NCBI RefSeq assembly: GCF_023006505.1
Contig: NZ_JALBGV010000015.1
Span: 1-64,000 of the forward strand
Length of the DNA: 64,000 nt
Direction: 5' to 3'
DNA from: Neorhizobium sp. SHOUNA12A
GTDB lineage: Bacteria; Pseudomonadota; Alphaproteobacteria; Rhizobiales; Rhizobiaceae
Positions 55,628-63,921 of this stretch are shown here, piece by piece; positions within the stretch are counted from its first letter, which is position 1; every line of letters starts with the position of its first letter. The notes beneath the pieces were generated by a model that saw nothing but the letters and a program-made list of their open reading frames with translations, did not search any database and was not told where the DNA came from. A program made the position numbers and the translations under genes.

Positions 55628-58600
55628 TCAGTTCGCCAGCACCCGCGGCGAAGGGAAGGTGATCTCCACCAGCGTGCCCTCGTTCGGCGCCGAAGTGATC
55701 GCGAAGGCGGCGCGATTTGCGTCGACCATCGCCTTTGTCAGCGGCAGGCCAAGACCGGTACCGTCGCCGCGCTTGTGCGAGGCGCTCGATACCTGGCGGA
55801 ACGGCTTCATGGCAAGCTCCAGCTCCGAGCGGGTCATGCCGATGCCGGTATCGCGGACACGAAGTACCACGTTTCCATTGGTCTCGTAGGCGGTGGAGAC
55901 GACGATCTGGCCGCCCGAGGGCGTGAAGCGGATGGCGTTCGACAGGATGTTCAGCACGATCTGCTTGATCGAGCGCGGATCGGCGACCACCTGCGGCACG
56001 GCATGCGAGAGCGCCGTGCGGATGATGACGCGCTGGCTGTTTGCCTGCGGCTGCACCAGCGAGACGGCTTCCGACACCGCCTCGTTGAGGCCGACGGCGA
56101 CGAAATCGAGCTCCATCTCGCCTGCCTCGATCTTGGAAATGTCGAGGAGGTCGTTGACGATATCGAGCACATGCCGGCCGGAGCGGCTGATGTCGTTGGC
56201 ATATTCGACGTAACGCGCATGGCCGATCTGGCCGAAGCGCTCGCTCGCCATCATGTCGGCAAAGCCGATGATCGCGTTGAGCGGCGTGCGGATTTCATGG
56301 CTCACATGGGCGAGGAATTCGCTCTTATGGGCATTTGCGGTCTCGGCGGCGCGCTTGGCGGTACGCAGCTCGTCTTCGGTGCGCTTCCACTGGGTGATGT
56401 CGCGGATGACGGCGCAATAACCGTTCGAGGAGGTCAGCTTGCCGATCGTCATGAACAGCGGCAGGAATCCGCCGGAAGCTTCGCGGCCGATCACTTCGCG
56501 GCCGTCGTTGAGGACGCTGGCGACGCCGTGGCCGGCAAGGCCTGCGAGATAATCGAGGATCGCCCGCTGGCTCTCGTGCGCAAACAGCGTGACGAAGGGT
56601 TTGCCGCTGATCTCTTCATTGTCGTAGTTGAAGAGCGCGCTCGCCGCCCGGTTCACCGAGCGGATGTCGCCTTCCGCACCGATGATGACCACGCCGTCGG
56701 TGGCGGTTTCCAGGATCGCGCGCAGTTCCGTTACCTCGACCTGCAGCTTTGCCAGCTGGTCGGCGGCGCGGGGTGCGCGCAACGGAATGACTTCTGCCGC
56801 TTGGCCGTCCTCGGTGGAGCCCTGTACCTCGGCCACGACCGGCATCAGCGCCAGCATGAGGACAGTCGAATTGTCCCAGCGGACGGATTGAAGGCGTGCC
56901 GTCACCGGCACCAGTTCGTCGTCGGCGCGCACCACGACCATGCCGCCGGCCTCCGCCGTCTTGCCTTCGAGATCCTGGCGCTGCAGCAATGCATCGAGAC
57001 CGCCGACGTCCGCCAGTTCGTCGATCGAAGCATAACCGGTCAGCCGCAGGAATTCCGGATTTCCGTGGATCAAAAGGTCGCCGCTGTGCACGAGAAGCGC
57101 CACCGGCATCTGGTCGACGATCTCCGCGGAAAGGCCGATCCGCTCGCGGACCGGGATCATCTGGCTCAACAGTTCACGATCGGACAGCTCCGGATGCGGG
57201 TCGGCGGGCGCCTCTGCGGCATCTTCCACCTCTTCAGTGGGCTCGATCGGCGCGTCGGCAAAAGCCTCGTTCGCTTCTTCGGCGAATGCGATCGCCTCTT
57301 CCTCGGAAATCTCTTCTGAAACGGGGGCGACAGGTTCCTCGCGCACAGTCTCATGTTCGAGCTGGGTGAGCTCTATCGCGGTCGGCTCGTTCGGTTCGAC
57401 AGCGGGTACCTCCGCCTCGGTCGAGGTCTCCGGCTTCTTTTCCTCGTTGCGGCGGCCGACGAAATTGTCGAGCTGGCGGGCGATCTCGCGGAAAGCAGCC
57501 TGTTCGACGGGGGTCAGCCCGTCGCGGCGGTTGGAGCGACGCTCCTCGAGCTGGATGACCTTGTCGGAATGGCGGCGGCCGGCGTTTTCGACGATCCGGA
57601 GCGCCGGGCGTTCGCCGGCCGGCCAGTCGAGCAGCGAAGGGATCTGCCGGCCGGACATGGACGGCTGCGGCCTGTCCTCCGGGGCAGGCTCCAACGGCAG
57701 GTCTTTCGCAAGCAAGTCTTCGGATGGTGTCGCATCGGCGGATATGTCCTCGGCGACCGCAGGCTGCTCGGCATCTTCCGCGAGTTCCGGCTCTTCGAAC
57801 GCGGCGTGCTCCTCGGCCGCAGAAGTCTCTGCAGCCGGTTTTGCACTCGCGGAGCTTTCAGCGTTTGCGTCTTCGGCCGAGCCTATCCCAGCTGGCGCAC
57901 CGATGGCTTCGTCCTGCCCGACGGCCAAACCGTCTCCTGGCGCCAAGTCCGCTGCATCGGCGGGCATCTCATAGGCTTCGGAAACAGTCTCAGCTTCCGG
58001 TTCGGCCACATCCTCCGGCACGGCGCGGGTCAGCGTCAGGCCAACTGCGTTCGGATCCTCGGCTGCATCGCCGATGCGCACGATGCCGAAACCGCGAAAA
58101 CCGTCGAACTCGCGGGTACGGGTATAGGTCGGCAGCGCGGCGAGATCGACCGGCACCATCAAAGACGTGCCCTCGACAGGCCACCAGATCGTCTTGCCGG
58201 ACCAGGTATCGCGCTTGTTGAGCAGTTCGGTGATCTTGCCCTCGGGGTCAAGGTAGAAGAGGGCGGCGAGATCGGTAAAGGCCATGCCGTTGATATCGGC
58301 GGCATGCGGGCCGACAGCGTCGGCAAATTCGCTCGAAACTTCCCTGAACCGGCCCTCGGCATCGATCTTCCAGACGAAACGGGTCGCGCGCCCGTCGCGG
58401 CGGAAAACGAAACCGTCCGGTTCCGGCGCGGCAATTTCGGCGGCTGCGGGTTCGGCTGCAGGCGCTGCCTCCACCATCTCAGGCTCGCCAGCCACGGTTT
58501 CTTCGGTGGCGGTTTCGGAAACGACCTCTTCCTCCGCCCCGATCGTTGCTGCCGAGGAAACAGCATCGATTTCCGCGGTCGGTGCTGCCGTTTCAGGCGC

Positions 58601-59527
58601 GACCTGTTCAATCGGTTCTTCGGAAGCAGCGGCGTGGACGGGAGCAAAATTTTCGCTGGGTTCCAGCAAAATTTCTTCTTCAGGCTCTTCCGTATCGACG
58701 ATCTCCGACACGGCGGCAATCACATCGGCAAACCCGTCGGCAGGCGCCGGCTCGGCCGCGAAGTCCGCGGTGTCATCGCTTGCGGCAAGTTTGGCCACGG
58801 CGTCCTCGGCATTCGCCGGCGCGTCATCGCGCGGCTCGTAGCCGTTCGCGGCGCTAGCCCGGCCCTGTTCGGTCTCGACCGTGAATAGGAGATGCAGGGC
58901 CGGTTCGTTGGAAAGCTTGCCGATCGCAGCCGGCAGGTAGCCCTTGGAGGTCGGGATGGGGCGCTTGACGAGGCGGCTCGGATCGGCGCCCGCCATGGTC
59001 GTCATCATCTTGGCGGTGTGGGTGGAAACGCCGAGCCCCGCGAACTCGGCCGAGGCGGCGAGCACCTCGCCGTTTTCGTCGATCACCGCCATATGCGTAT
59101 CGGGATCGTCGAAGCCTTCGATCATCCGGGCCGCAGAGGCCGAGGGTGAGAGCCTGCCTCGTTCCACCGGCGCGCTGAACAGCACCGCCGCTTCGCCCTG
59201 AACCTGAACAAGTTCGCAGACCGCCTGCACGGGAATGCGCTGGAAACCGGAAGCGACGCGGATCGTCAGGTTGCGGATGTCGCCGACTTCGCCGAGCTGG
59301 CGCGCAGCCGCTTCGATCTGGCGGAAGGCGATATCGACGCGGTTCGGACCCTGGTCGAGAAAATCGTAGATGGAGCCGAAGCCGAAAAGATCGGCGCCGC
59401 GCCCGTTCGCCCAGAGAGGGCTTTGCATGTCCGGAGAAAACAGCACGATCGCTTCGCCCGCCGCAAAACGATCGCGGACGCGCTCGTGCACGGCAATATC
59501 GATGAACGGGTATTGGACTGCGGACAT
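55628..59527 (-). CDS. cbrA: Sensor histidine kinase CbrA (PdhS family, giant)
   Basis: A 1299-residue histidine kinase without membrane helices. The N-terminal 225 residues contain PAS-like sequence. An acidic Ala/Glu-rich linker (about 230-380), a PAS-like domain (about 385-500), a second and longer acidic linker (about 500-800), and two more PAS domains (about 815-925 and 955-1060) follow. HisKA has the phosphorylated His at 1077 (EFLAHVSHEIRTPLNAIIGF), and HATPase has DTGIGM and GDGTGLGLPL. In S. meliloti CbrA acts on DivK and so on CtrA, controlling cell cycle, motility and exopolysaccharide. The ATG at 59527 is preferred to TTG 59533. A CtrA-type box lies 44 bases upstream. Long antisense ORFs in this gene are shadows. 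Confidence 0.92.
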   Translation of the reverse strand: MSAVQYPFIDIAVHERVRDRFAAGEAIVLFSPDMQSPLWANGRGADLFGFGSIYDFLDQGPNRVDIAFRQIEAAARQLGEVGDIRNLTIRVASGFQRIPVQAVCELVQVQGEAAVLFSAPVERGRLSPSASAARMIEGFDDPDTHMAVIDENGEVLAASAEFAGLGVSTHTAKMMTTMAGADPSRLVKRPIPTSKGYLPAAIGKLSNEPALHLLFTVETEQGRASAANGYEPRDDAPANAEDAVAKLAASDDTADFAAEPAPADGFADVIAAVSEIVDTEEPEEEILLEPSENFAPVHAAASEEPIEQVAPETAAPTAEIDAVSSAATIGAEEEVVSETATEETVAGEPEMVEAAPAAEPAAAEIAAPEPDGFVFRRDGRATRFVWKIDAEGRFREVSSEFADAVGPHAADINGMAFTDLAALFYLDPEGKITELLNKRDTWSGKTIWWPVEGTSLMVPVDLAALPTYTRTREFDGFRGFGIVRIGDAAEDPNAVGLTLTRAVPEDVAEPEAETVSEAYEMPADAADLAPGDGLAVGQDEAIGAPAGIGSAEDANAESSASAKPAAETSAAEEHAAFEEPELAEDAEQPAVAEDISADATPSEDLLAKDLPLEPAPEDRPQPSMSGRQIPSLLDWPAGERPALRIVENAGRRHSDKVIQLEERRSNRRDGLTPVEQAAFREIARQLDNFVGRRNEEKKPETSTEAEVPAVEPNEPTAIELTQLEHETVREEPVAPVSEEISEEEAIAFAEEANEAFADAPIEPTEEVEDAAEAPADPHPELSDRELLSQMIPVRERIGLSAEIVDQMPVALLVHSGDLLIHGNPEFLRLTGYASIDELADVGGLDALLQRQDLEGKTAEAGGMVVVRADDELVPVTARLQSVRWDNSTVLMLALMPVVAEVQGSTEDGQAAEVIPLRAPRAADQLAKLQVEVTELRAILETATDGVVIIGAEGDIRSVNRAASALFNYDNEEISGKPFVTLFAHESQRAILDYLAGLAGHGVASVLNDGREVIGREASGGFLPLFMTIGKLTSSNGYCAVIRDITQWKRTEDELRTAKRAAETANAHKSEFLAHVSHEIRTPLNAIIGFADMMASERFGQIGHARYVEYANDISRSGRHVLDIVNDLLDISKIEAGEMELDFVAVGLNEAVSEAVSLVQPQANSQRVIIRTALSHAVPQVVADPRSIKQIVLNILSNAIRFTPSGGQIVVSTAYETNGNVVLRVRDTGIGMTRSELELAMKPFRQVSSASHKRGDGTGLGLPLTKAMVDANRAAFAITSAPNEGTLVEITFPSPRVLAN

Positions 59528-59570
59528 AGGCAAAACCTACAGGACGTTTGTGACCGGATTTCTACGTAGT

Positions 59571-59764: not shown

Positions 59765-60211
59765 ATGGCATACAAGACCGACGATATCTTTTCCTTCTCC
59801 GCTTTCGATCCGTCCAAGATGACCGAAGGCTTCCGCGACTTCGCTGAAAAGGGTGCCACCCAGTCTCGCGAAGCCTATGCTAAGATGAAATCCGCTGCCG
59901 AGGAAGCCACCAAGACGGTGGAATCCACAATGCAGTCGGCGCAGGCTGGCTCTGTCGAACTCGGCCTCAAGGCGATCGACGCGCTGCGTACCAATGCTGA
60001 AAACTCGCTGACCCATATGGAATCCTTGCTCGGCGTGAAGTCCTTTGCCGAACTGATCGAGCTGCAGACTGGTTTCATCCGCAAGCAGGCTGAAATCACG
60101 GTTGAGCAGGCCAAGTCCATGCAGGACACCGCCCGCAAGATCGTCGAAGACGTGACGAAGCCCGGCAAGGAAGCCGCTGAAAAGGTCATGACGACCTTCA
60201 AGGCTGCCTAA
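59765..60211 (+). CDS. phaP: Phasin (PHB granule protein)
   Basis: A 148-residue phasin of the Phasin_2 family. It is helical and amphipathic with the repeating pattern SRAYA/AKMKSAAEEATKTVEST typical of granule coat proteins, plus KSFAELIELQTGFIRKQAEI. It coats polyhydroxybutyrate granules. It is divergent from cbrA, and its promoter carries a TTGTGC palindrome. The terminator at 60238 closes the unit. Acetoacetyl-CoA synthetase is on the other side of cbrA, so PHB functions cluster here. Confidence 0.92.
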   Translation: MAYKTDDIFSFSAFDPSKMTEGFRDFAEKGATQSREAYAKMKSAAEEATKTVESTMQSAQAGSVELGLKAIDALRTNAENSLTHMESLLGVKSFAELIELQTGFIRKQAEITVEQAKSMQDTARKIVEDVTKPGKEAAEKVMTTFKAA

Positions 60212-60562: not shown

Positions 60563-61207
60563 TCACCAGCGCAGCAGGCGCGGTCCCAGAAGCGAGCCGG
60601 CAATGCCGGTCAGCAGGATCCCGAGCGAGTACCAGATGAGCACGAAGGGCATGCCGTTCTCGGTGCAGAACCAGGAATAGACCCAGGCGCCGGCAGCACC
60701 CGCCGCGATGCCGGCGATGAAGCCGGTCAGCTTCAGATCAGTCGGTGCACCATGGCGCAGGACCCACACGTTTCCTGCAAATACCGGAAGCGCGAAGAGG
60801 AAGATCAGCAGCGGGCAATGCAGCGCCGACGATCCGATGATCATTTTGGAATAGTTTTCGGCCGGCGACATCATCAGCTGGATCACGGCGACCACAGCCA
60901 TGATCGCAACGATCGCCGCCGCGGTCTGGAAGAACCGTCCCCTGGAACCGTCAGGCCGTGCCAGATGATAGGCGGCGAGGAAAGCGGCGATCGCCAGCAG
61001 CGCATTGTAGGCGGATTTGATCCAGAACACCGGCAGCATCAGCGCTTCCGCCATGTCGATGCGCAGGCCGAGGATCGCCAGCATCAGTACCAGCGACACG
61101 ACGAGCGCCGGCAGGACGCCGAGCACGAAGCGGCGCGCCAGCGCATGCCGCGGCACCGGCTTCAGGTCGCCTACCAGGCTGTCGATGATGTCGTCCGTCT
61201 TTCTCAC
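60563..61207 (-). CDS. nrsF: NrsF-type anti-sigma factor (DUF1109)
   Basis: A 214-residue membrane protein with about six helices (such as FVLGVLPALVVSLVLMLAIL, YNALLAIAAFLAAYHLA, and LKLTGFIAGIAAGAAGAWVY). This DUF1109 family is the negative regulator of SigF (NrsF) in Caulobacter and other proteobacteria. Its Cys residues in the loops (LHCPLL and WFCTENGMP) are conserved-looking and are the residues known to sense oxidants in homologues. The gene overlaps the sigma-factor stop by four bases, so the two are translated together. Confidence 0.9.
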   Translation of the reverse strand: MRKTDDIIDSLVGDLKPVPRHALARRFVLGVLPALVVSLVLMLAILGLRIDMAEALMLPVFWIKSAYNALLAIAAFLAAYHLARPDGSRGRFFQTAAAIVAIMAVVAVIQLMMSPAENYSKMIIGSSALHCPLLIFLFALPVFAGNVWVLRHGAPTDLKLTGFIAGIAAGAAGAWVYSWFCTENGMPFVLIWYSLGILLTGIAGSLLGPRLLRW

Positions 61208-61937: not shown

Positions 61938-62198
61938 ATGACCAAGCTTCTTTCCAGCCTTGCAGCCTGCACCTTCGTCGTCGGCCTTTCGCTTGCCGGC
62001 GCGGCGAACGCCCAGAGCAGCACGAGCACCGACACGATGAAGAAGGACACCATGAAAACCGACACCATGAAGCAGAATTCGATGAAGAAGGATTCCATGG
62101 CGACCGGCACCAAGACCGACTGCATGCACAAGGCCGGCATGGAAAAGAACACGATGAAGAAGTCCGAGATGATGAAGGCCTGCGACGCAATGAAATAA
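61938..62198 (+). CDS. Secreted Met/Lys-rich MXKDX pentapeptide protein (MrpX-like)
   Basis: An 86-residue protein with a signal peptide (SSLAACTFVVGLSLAGAANA) and a mature part made of pentapeptide repeats DTMKK, DTMKT, DTMKQ, NSMKK, DSMAT. It is rich in Met and Lys and ends with further Met residues and two Cys (DCMHKAGM and MMKACDAMK). This resembles the MXKDX repeat family and MrpX of Azospira, a periplasmic scavenger of hypochlorite whose Met residues are oxidised and then repaired. The ECF promoter and the oxidoreductase genes downstream support the same role. AGGAGG lies 7 bases before the ATG. Confidence 0.85.
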   Translation: MTKLLSSLAACTFVVGLSLAGAANAQSSTSTDTMKKDTMKTDTMKQNSMKKDSMATGTKTDCMHKAGMEKNTMKKSEMMKACDAMK

Positions 62199-62217
62199 TG
62201 CCGTGAAATGATCTGAC

Positions 62218-62251
62218 CGCGGCCGCTGAAACTTTTTGTCCGGCGGCCGCG
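62218..62251 (+). other. 9-bp inverted repeat between MXKDX and cytochrome b genes
   Basis: CGCGGCCGC (62218-62226), a 16-base loop, and GCGGCCGCG (62243-62251) form a strong stem 20 bases after the MXKDX stop. No T run follows. It could be an attenuator or protect the upstream mRNA, giving high scavenger and low reductase output. Confidence 0.65.
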
Positions 62252-62293
62252 TCTATCTGCTGGAGCCCACTTCCCGCATTCGGAGGAAATACC

Positions 62294-63148
62294 ATGGCCA
62301 CGATCGATGCCGGCGTTGCGACCGGCCGGACGGTCATTTACCGCCACAGCCTGCTGGTGCGCCTCTCGCACTGGGTGAATGTGCTCTGCATGACCGTGCT
62401 GCTGTTCAGCGGCCTGCAGATATTCAATGCGCATCCGGCGCTCTATTGGGGCCAGTACGGTGCCGATAACGATCCGTCCTTCATTTCCATGGAGGCGGTC
62501 GAGGATGGCGACAAGGCCAAGGGCGTGACCCGCGTCGGTTCGCTGTCCTTCAACACGACGGGGGTTCTCGGCCTCTCGCAGGTCGACGGCGAGGCGACCG
62601 CGCGCGGTTTCCCCGAATGGCTGACGATCCCGAGCTATCAGGACCTCGCGACCGGCCGGCGCTGGCATTTCTTCTTTGCGTGGCTGTTCGTGATCAACGG
62701 TTTCATCTATCTTGCCTACGGGCTGCTGAGCCGGCATTTCCGCCGCGATCTCTTACCCGCGGGAAATGAACTGACGCCCGCCCACATCGGCCATGAAATC
62801 GTCAATCACGCCCGGCTGCGGTTTCCGAAAGGGCCGGAGGCGCGGCATTACAACACGCTGCAGAAGCTAACCTATGTTGCGGTTATCTTCCTGCTCCTGC
62901 CGTTGATGATCCTCACGGGGCTCACCATGTCGCCCGGCTTCGACGCTGTGGCACCCTGGCTGCTCGATATATTCGGCGGCAGGCAGTCAGCCCGCACGAT
63001 CCACTTCCTGACGGCCTTTTCCCTCACCGCCTTCGTGGTTGTCCACGTCGCGATGGTGATCCTGTCGGGCGTCTTCAACAATCTGCGTTCGATGATCACC
63101 GGTTACTACGCCATAGACCATGGGGACATAAAGGGAGACAAGCTATGA
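62294..63148 (+). CDS. Cytochrome b561-type membrane protein
   Basis: A 284-residue membrane protein with at least four helices. Likely haem-ligand His residues lie in YRHSLLVRLSHWVNVLCMTV (helix 1), RRWHFFFAWLFVINGFIYLA (helix 2) and TIHFLTAFSLTAFVVVHVAM (last helix). It overlaps the oxidoreductase start by four bases, so the two form one complex: the cytochrome probably passes electrons from quinol to the periplasmic molybdo-enzyme. It differs in size and fold pattern from the usual MsrQ/YedZ. The ATG follows CGGAGG at 9 bases. Confidence 0.82.
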   Translation: MATIDAGVATGRTVIYRHSLLVRLSHWVNVLCMTVLLFSGLQIFNAHPALYWGQYGADNDPSFISMEAVEDGDKAKGVTRVGSLSFNTTGVLGLSQVDGEATARGFPEWLTIPSYQDLATGRRWHFFFAWLFVINGFIYLAYGLLSRHFRRDLLPAGNELTPAHIGHEIVNHARLRFPKGPEARHYNTLQKLTYVAVIFLLLPLMILTGLTMSPGFDAVAPWLLDIFGGRQSARTIHFLTAFSLTAFVVVHVAMVILSGVFNNLRSMITGYYAIDHGDIKGDKL

Positions 63149-63921
63149 GCCGCATCATCACCCGCCGCCGCTTCCTGATCGGCGCGACCATGACGGCTTC
63201 GGCGCTCGGCCTGAGCGGCTGCGACGCGCTTGTCGAAAGCGACCGGACGAAATCCGTCCTCAAGATCGCCGAGGGTTTTTCGATGAAGACCCAGCGTTTC
63301 CTTCTCGGCGACAATGCGCTGGCGCGCGAGTTCACCGAGGCGGATCTCTCGCCGGTGTTTCGCGCCAACGGCACCAGCATGCCGGACAATCCGCAATATC
63401 TCGACTGGATGAACCAGCAGTTCTCGACCTGGAAGCTGGATGTTGGCGGTCTGGTCGACAAGCCGATGCAGCTGTCGCTTGCCGACCTGAAGGCGCTGCC
63501 GGCCCGCACCCAGATCACCCGGCACGATTGCGTCGAAGGCTGGAGCGCCATCGGCAAATGGACCGGCGTGCCGCTGGGTGCGCTGCTCAAGACGGTCGGC
63601 CTGAAGCCGGAAGCTCGCTACATCGTCTTCCATTGTGCCGACGAATACGAAAAGACGCTCGATGGCACCGGCTGGTATTACGAGAGCATCGATCTGGTGG
63701 ATGCCTTCCATCCGCAGACCATCCTTGCCCACACGATGAACGGCCGCGACCTTGAAGTTGCCCATGGCGCGCCGCTGCGGCTGCGTGTCGAGCGCCAGCT
63801 TGGCTATAAACAGGCGAAATATCTGACACGCATCGAAGCGGTTGCCGATCTCGGCCGTCTTTACGGAGGCAGCGGCGGTTTCTGGGAGGATCGCGGTTAC
63901 GAATGGTATGCCGGGATCTGA
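63145..63921 (+). CDS. Molybdopterin oxidoreductase (sulfite oxidase / MsrP-like), Tat lipoprotein
   Basis: A 258-residue molybdo-enzyme of the sulfite oxidase fold. The N-terminus has a twin-arginine motif (TRRRFLIG) and a lipobox-like LSGC (Cys26), so it is probably exported folded and may be lipid-anchored. The Mo-ligand Cys is at about 129 (RHDCVEGWSAIGKWTGVPL). HPQTILAHTMNGRDL and GAPLRLRVERQLGYKQAKY are family motifs. MsrP repairs oxidised Met in periplasmic proteins; given the Met-rich neighbour, that is the best guess. It is coupled to the cytochrome gene. Confidence 0.83.
   Translation: MSRIITRRRFLIGATMTASALGLSGCDALVESDRTKSVLKIAEGFSMKTQRFLLGDNALAREFTEADLSPVFRANGTSMPDNPQYLDWMNQQFSTWKLDVGGLVDKPMQLSLADLKALPARTQITRHDCVEGWSAIGKWTGVPLGALLKTVGLKPEARYIVFHCADEYEKTLDGTGWYYESIDLVDAFHPQTILAHTMNGRDLEVAHGAPLRLRVERQLGYKQAKYLTRIEAVADLGRLYGGSGGFWEDRGYEWYAGI

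Follow-up and report, generated by a model that had tools for sequence, protein, structure and literature searches.

Which function does a small gene cluster serve in which a secreted methionine-rich peptide, a membrane cytochrome and an exported molybdo-enzyme stand next to an extracytoplasmic function (ECF) sigma factor? The cluster occupies the last 3.5 kb of a stretch of 64,000 nucleotides from Neorhizobium sp. SHOUNA12A (contig NZ_JALBGV010000015.1, positions 1 to 64,000), which we call the window, and consists of two divergent operons. An original prediction, made from the DNA letters, had seen in it an independent or divergent version of the MrpX methionine sulfoxide repair system of Azospira. 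We find that the window locus is a further member of a system that has already been reported in a few other bacteria. Its likely function is that of a methionine sink for envelope oxidants, driven by the respiratory chain. This reading is based on the gene order, the paired ECF16 promoter motifs, the conserved cysteines of the anti-sigma factor NrsF, the invariant histidine and cysteine residues of cytochrome and enzyme, the enrichment of peptides beside this pair, and published relatives. It would place a methionine-sink defence in Rhizobium. More interesting than the locus itself is what the pair of cytochrome and enzyme suggests at the level of the family.

Architecture of the locus

The components named in the original prediction were all recovered in place. 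The peptide matches TIGR02953, the b-type cytochrome PF01292, and the molybdo-enzyme, with its signal for twin-arginine translocation (Tat), PF00174 (Table 1). The genes for the sigma factor and its NrsF-family partner fall just outside the positions 61938 to 63921 covered by that prediction. That the locus is of the MrpX type and stands under an ECF factor with NrsF control is borne out by the TIGR02953 score, by the PF06532 match, by the sigma domains and by paired promoter motifs. The NCBIfam model penta_MxKDx (TIGR02953) has a cut-off of 41 bits, which the peptide exceeds. As read from its sequence, the peptide carries a Sec-type signal and 12 methionines in total.

The cytochrome is probably a di-haem protein, and the end of its gene overlaps the start of the enzyme gene by four bases. 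The enzyme begins with a Tat-like TRRRFL followed by an LSGC lipobox, and a simple pattern finds a lipobox in 78 of 96 enzyme relatives. Among the 96 aligned relatives of each protein, His26, His125, His237 and His251 of the cytochrome are invariant, as is Cys129 of the enzyme, which sits in RHDCVEGWS. The CVEGW core is exact in 87 of the 96 enzymes and reads CIEGW in seven rows of the e-type and CEQGW in two rows of the A-type, the two subclades described below. We take Cys129 to be the molybdenum ligand and the four histidines to be ligands in the cytochrome.

In Rhizobium sp. BT03, peptide, cytochrome and enzyme follow in the same order beside the same regulators, so that the arrangement is not due to chance. 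Between the window and BT03 the peptide gene has a synonymous divergence (dS) of 0.43 and a nonsynonymous divergence (dN) of 0.18, and we therefore regard it as a conserved, loosely constrained gene.

Table 1. Features of the locus and of its flank, in positions of the window (aa, amino acids).
Feature	Positions	Strand	Basis
PAS/histidine kinase, 1301 residues, beside the locus	55628-59533	-	
Phasin, beside the locus	59765-60211	+	
NrsF-family anti-sigma factor, 214 aa, Cys131 and Cys181	60563-61207	-	PF06532, E 9.5e-70
ECF sigma factor, 182 aa	61204-61752	-	Sigma70 r2 and r4_2 domains; 4-base overlap with nrsF
ECF16-type promoter motif of the sigma/anti-sigma operon, TGTAAC-N16-CGAA	61769-61794	-	motif match
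ECF16-type promoter motif of the peptide operon, TGTAAC-N16-CGAA	61848-61873	+	motif match
Secreted Met-rich MxKDx-repeat peptide (MrpX/BcrX-like), 86 aa	61938-62198	+	TIGR02953, 65.3 bits
b561-type membrane cytochrome, 284 aa	62294-63148	+	PF01292, E 1e-26
Sulfite-oxidase-fold molybdo-enzyme, Tat-exported, lipoprotein-like, 258 aa	63145-63921	+	PF00174, E 2.1e-37

Predicted control by an ECF16-type sigma factor

Two copies of the motif TGTAAC-N15..18-CGAA are present in the 64 kb window, back to back in the gap between the sigma factor and peptide genes. Shuffled windows contain it 0.14 times on average, and two copies were reached in 3 of 100 shuffles. The narrower form TGTAAC-N16-CGAAT has exactly two copies in the 6.56 Mb genome, and its reversed control has no match there. 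Because both genome copies lie in this gap, the locus would be the sole target of its sigma factor, counting exact matches only (looser sites were not sought).

Judged by its NrsF partner and by the promoters, the sigma factor would belong to the ECF16 class. Two hallmarks of ECF16/NrsF systems are present in the window, the two NrsF cysteines and the paired TGTAAC-N16-CGAA motifs. The cysteines at 131 and 181 coincide with the positions given for Caulobacter NrsF (PMC3511200). The promoters described for Caulobacter, GTAACC-N16-CGAA (PMC3511200), and for Brucella, (T/C)GTAAC-N17-CGAA (PMC8315932), differ from those of the window by a spacing that is one base longer.

Among 14 loci with sigma factor and NrsF, window included, 13 contain it (28 copies in 145 kb); it lies upstream of the operon in 11 and on both strands of the gap, as in the window, in eight. 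Among 14 NrsF proteins, each from a different locus, Cys131 is conserved in all and Cys181 in 11. The motif is found in two of six loci with a sigma factor alone, and 59 loci with neither regulator have 10 copies in 600 kb. No copy occurs in the 151 kb of 17 loci with two-component systems.

An enzyme family apart from MsrPQ

With the MsrP model the window enzyme scores 99.8 bits, below the cut-off of 207. A true MsrP (480 bits) is encoded at another place in the genome, and the gene after it codes for an MsrQ that belongs to the ferric-reductase type (PF01794). A third enzyme in the genome is of the kind annotated 'sulfite oxidase-like'; rows with the annotation 'sulfite oxidase-like oxidoreductase' are here labelled 'YuiH-like'.

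Relationships were examined with a tree of 76 of the 123 collected enzyme rows; from the remaining A- and e-type rows a random draw of 24 was included, and the others were dropped. The tree was rooted at the midpoint. Of the sulfite dehydrogenase kind it includes a single SoxC and a single annotated sulfite oxidase, but no SorA and no SorT; the program gave a long-branch warning for the SoxC, sulfite oxidase, L242 and L247 rows. A branch with support of 98/87 sets off the side of the window enzyme. This side comprises two large groups, the A-type of the window and the e-type (100/100), and also a form in which cytochrome and enzyme are fused (100/100) and which groups with the A-type rows (89/81). 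On the other side are MsrP (100/100), the YuiH-like rows and the SoxC and sulfite oxidase rows. A 98/86 branch places the latter two with the YuiH-like rows, and both have long branches, so that their own place is unsure. Loci L026 and L031, tentatively placed with sulfite oxidases, fell inside MsrP.

The cytochrome leads to the same separation. MsrP/MsrQ resembles the window pair in that a molybdenum cofactor enzyme with the same Pfam domain is joined by a partner in the membrane. In contrast to the PF01292 cytochrome of the window, the MsrQ proteins of its own genome and of E. marmotae belong to PF01794, and a BLASTP comparison of the window cytochrome with the MsrQ of the same genome shows no noteworthy similarity (E 0.094). 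The one annotated msrPQ operon that we examined (L241) has neither peptide nor ECF factor, unlike the window. Classic MsrPQ was thus rejected for the window pair on the enzyme score, the place outside the MsrP branch and the partner family. The original prediction had held the enzyme to be distinct from classic MsrP, and it was right in this.

Published relatives

In gene order, the published system that comes closest is bcrS-abcS/bcrXQP of Brucella melitensis, for which the same layout was published in 2021 (PMC8315932). It shares with the window an ECF16 sigma factor, an NrsF-type anti-sigma factor and divergent TGTAAC...CGAA promoters. The order of peptide, membrane cytochrome and molybdo-enzyme is that of the window and of the A-type loci. 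The bcrXQP genes are induced by hypochlorous acid (HOCl) and driven directly by BcrS, and their deletion lowers survival of HOCl (PMC8315932). Whereas the window comes from a soil bacterium, Brucella is an alphaproteobacterial pathogen. BcrQ and BcrP have been named homologues of MsrQ and MsrP (PMC8315932), and we compare them by description only. An exact search with the bcrX promoter gave no match in 394 genomes of the family or in wider genome contigs.

The second relative is the SigF/NrsF-yedYZ-mrpX set of perchlorate islands of the Azospira suillum type. The role of the Azospira sigF, nrsF, mrpX and yedY1 genes is taken from papers that cite the original work. We compared this set through Dechloromonas hortensis MA-1 rather than through the Azospira proteins. 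A chlorite dismutase (Cld) match was found in three of the 38 genomes that had e-type enzymes among 399 searched in one bacterial order. In one of them, which matches the D. hortensis MA-1 record, the dismutase (111 bits) lies on the contig of the cassette at a distance of 15 kb. The contig of MA-1 encodes a PcrA close to the solved structure 4YDD (1968 bits), and its Cld is similar to 2VXH (551 bits); we take 4YDD and 2VXH to be Azospira proteins.

Beside PcrA and Cld, the D. hortensis island (L199/L212) has a sigma factor, NrsF, a PF01292 cytochrome, a short PF00174 enzyme and an MxKDx peptide (92.9 bits), with paired promoter motifs as in the window. Its enzyme (L185) falls on the same side of the tree as the window's. 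It belongs to the other subclade, however, and in contrast to the window the cytochrome has about 200 residues and the peptide follows the enzyme instead of preceding the cytochrome. Window and D. hortensis are 26% identical in the cytochrome (2e-17) and 37% in the enzyme (5e-50).

Among 29 PcrA-based loci, five of them only about 30% identical, four (L201, L202, L203 and L212) combine sigma factor, NrsF and the e-type cytochrome and enzyme. Five others (L207, L210, L215, L216 and L218) have sigma factor and NrsF but, within the stretch fetched, no pair, L210 with a peptide in addition, and the remaining 20 have no such set in fetched stretches of which many are short. The pair is thus not shown for every perchlorate island. 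A search with the perchlorate reductase family gave no score over the cut-off in 120 genomes.

The third relative is the OrhK/OrhR cassette (c3566-c3568) of uropathogenic Escherichia coli (UPEC). In strain UTI89 (L145, 205-4176) it encodes a response regulator, a histidine kinase, a b561 cytochrome, an e-type enzyme and a Met-rich peptide of 80 residues. Cytochrome, short enzyme and peptide lie side by side as in the window. In contrast to the window, a two-component regulator takes the place of ECF/NrsF, the enzyme is of the e-type, and the cassette has been published as peroxide-responsive. The peptide comes last and reaches 35.2 bits with the MxKDx model, below the cut-off. Peroxide induces the system, and deletion of c3566/c3567 lowers peroxide resistance (PMC8550376). 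The cytochrome was given 23.1% identity to MsrQ in the same paper. BLASTP of the UTI89 cytochrome against an MsrQ finds no similarity worth naming (E 0.14). UTI89 and D. hortensis are 56% identical in the cytochrome and 58% in the enzyme, and both enzymes stay below the MsrP cut-off (75.9 and 73.4 bits).

These relatives correct the original prediction in two points. It had set the b561 cytochrome and the lipoprotein enzyme in contrast to the known system. They do not distinguish the window, because the D. hortensis and UPEC cassettes have the same kinds of proteins. Of its wording 'independent or divergent', the second part agrees with the low identities to D. hortensis. An independent re-invention was rejected, as perchlorate island and UPEC cassettes use the same enzyme family. 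The sequences fit a view of the window as a divergent branch of one enzyme family.

Distribution of enzyme, peptide and regulators

The A1 profile has a match at E <= 1e-40 in 78 of 398 genomes drawn across the phylum, and at the same threshold the enzyme is found in 31 of 57 genomes of the window's genus, its own included. Neighbourhoods were compared at 96 loci, made up of 17 minus two fusions (L043 and L049), 60 of 91 listed places, 20 of 41 listed places and UTI89. These are the fetched loci, not all matches, and some genomes supply two. Reading frames were called mechanically, and many extend too far at their 5' ends. To call regulators, we used phmmer similarity to the window sigma factor and NrsF or to an E. 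coli plasmid two-component pair, so that distant two-component systems are counted too.

In 42 of the 96 loci, a secreted Met-rich peptide is encoded no more than 1.1 kb from the pair, and three occur in 526 kb further out. This corresponds to 0.18 versus 0.006 per kb and an enrichment of about 30-fold. A stricter count, before allowing for over-long 5' ends, gives 37 beside pairs and two further out. The side on which the peptide lies differs between the subclades: among the loci that have one, it is upstream of the pair in 13/13 of the A-type and downstream in 27/29 of the e-type, where L088 and L095 have it upstream. ECF/NrsF regulators occur in 6/45 A-type and 8/51 e-type loci, two-component regulators in 3/45 and 14/51. 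Counted on a quick 102-row tree, the minimum number of changes, gains and losses together, is eight for ECF, seven for two-component systems and 13 for peptide presence, and we conclude that regulators and peptide come and go.

Proposed mechanism and alternatives

By analogy with the published relatives, oxidant induction, sink function and sulfoxide reduction would be expected at the window locus. An oxidant of the HOCl or peroxide type would alter NrsF, probably at the periplasmic Cys181, and thereby free the sigma factor. The freed sigma factor would fire the two back-to-back promoters and raise both the sigma/anti-sigma pair and the peptide-cytochrome-enzyme operon. The many exposed methionines of the secreted peptide would be oxidised first and spare the envelope proteins. 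The lipoprotein enzyme would then reduce the methionine sulfoxides of the peptide and perhaps those of other envelope proteins. Electrons may pass from the quinol pool through the b561 cytochrome to the enzyme, and the peptide would thereby work catalytically.

Several observations weigh against this mechanism. The Brucella mutants have no hydrogen peroxide (H2O2) phenotype (PMC8315932), and the inducers differ among the published relatives, with HOCl in Brucella (PMC8315932) and H2O2 in UPEC (PMC8550376). One locus with sigma factor and NrsF, L130, has no motif, and by the rule used the region upstream of the operon lacks it in three of the 14. For the enzyme, the AlphaFold model, built on a five-row alignment, has a mean predicted local distance difference test (pLDDT) score of 35.8 and is unusable. 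For the window locus itself, the function is inferred from its relatives. Finally, 54 of the 96 loci have no peptide beside the pair, so that the enzyme cannot everywhere depend on a linked one.

The same 54 loci, together with the peroxide sensitivity of UPEC mutants in the pair alone (PMC8550376), speak for general envelope repair, in which the pair would act on many oxidised envelope proteins and the peptide would be a minor co-substrate or an oxidation sensor. The MsrP/MsrQ of the genome also serves general repair, which is compatible with either role. We consider this alternative unlikely for the window, given that the operon opens with the peptide gene, preceded by an ECF-type promoter motif of its own, and that peptides are strongly enriched beside the pair.

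The enzyme could also be a sulfite dehydrogenase that oxidises sulfite or related sulfur compounds and feeds electrons to the b561 cytochrome. The shared fold and the control of SorT by ECF sigma factors in Sinorhizobium meliloti (PMC3511301) would agree with such a role, which we nevertheless judge highly improbable. The sulfite dehydrogenase models score far below their cut-offs, with 64.8 bits for SorA (cut-off 600), 55.0 for SoxC (420) and 48.8 for SorT (570). The 76-row tree separates the window enzyme from its one SoxC and one sulfite oxidase, both on long branches; the grouping with sulfite dehydrogenases that the original prediction had named as speaking against it is not seen there. 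We reject sulfite dehydrogenase identity on these scores and the tree. The S. meliloti factors are moreover called ECF26, and the SorT operon includes a cytochrome c, with no Met-rich peptide named in the available part of the paper (PMC3511301).

Metal handling, with copper or silver bound by a peptide whose methionines the pair keeps reduced, has very little to recommend it: related peptides can be extremely Met-rich (the MMKKRMMRKQMM type of L047), Caulobacter sigma-F responds to chromium and cadmium (PMC3511200) and the peptide-less relative L048 has cueR and a metal ATPase at a distance of about 4 kb, but the MxKDx repeat of the window, as read from the sequence, is charged and without MxxM or His-rich cluster, no metal gene is among the neighbours examined, and the published inducers of the closest relatives are oxidants.

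A possible second methionine sulfoxide reductase family

The methionine sink is the reading we prefer for the window. At the level of the family, it is an even call whether the pairs of the window, the perchlorate islands and UPEC represent a second periplasmic methionine sulfoxide reductase machine that evolved separately from MsrPQ. This machine would consist of a lipid-anchored molybdo-enzyme and a b561 cytochrome, in two old subclades and a fused form. The sacrificial peptide and an ECF16/NrsF or two-component sensor would have been attached to it several times independently, with the peptide mostly on opposite sides in the two subclades.

The pair has been described as MsrQP-like in the Brucella paper (PMC8315932), in the UPEC paper (PMC8550376) and in a review. 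For the cytochromes of UPEC and the D. hortensis perchlorate island this is likely a mislabel of a b561-type protein, and electron delivery would differ from that of MsrPQ because these cytochromes are b561-type. In the literature searched, which most subscription papers fall outside, we found no account that treats the pair as a distinct family built on b561, and none of the opposite placement of the peptide. Should the pair prove to be a repair machine of its own, studies of oxidant survival would need to treat it apart from MsrPQ. In the 96 neighbourhoods nature has combined enzyme subclade, peptide side and sensor in different ways, on which the sink idea can be tested.

Neighbouring genes and variants

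Past the window, downstream of the operon and convergent with it, a histidine kinase and a GGDEF/EAL response regulator are encoded on the opposite strand (L033, 5930-10156, contig C66). As far as can be told, they lie outside the operon unit. The kinase and phasin genes on the other flank are listed in Table 1.

An e-type cassette with a two-component system is plasmid-borne in 73 of 5426 E. coli genomes, at 76 places of which none is chromosomal. With the enzyme gene alone, 350 of the 5426 genomes and 288 chromosomal places are found, at about 77% identity among the rows shown. One such cassette is carried by pEntH10407 (L046, 4313-5962), and the peptide of these cassettes is often annotated 'hypothetical protein'.

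Fusions of cytochrome and molybdo-enzyme with about 580-590 residues (L043, 6387-8126; L049, 3828-5582; L246, 957-2732) come from a Bradyrhizobium and a Rhodococcus plasmid and one genome of the window's class, and form their own branch. L044 was rejected as a fusion, its cytochrome and enzyme being in different frames.

The peptides vary in composition. On a Methylorubrum plasmid (L047, 4808-5044), an extremely Met-rich basic peptide of the MMKKRMMRKQMM type precedes an A-type pair; it matches neither Pfam nor the NCBIfam MxKDx model, and L121 has a similar one. In L098, L100 and L101, which belong to one family, A-type pairs are accompanied by a divergent two-component system and by peptides that are acidic and rich in methionine and aspartate, unlike most other peptides at the 96 loci, which are lysine-rich.

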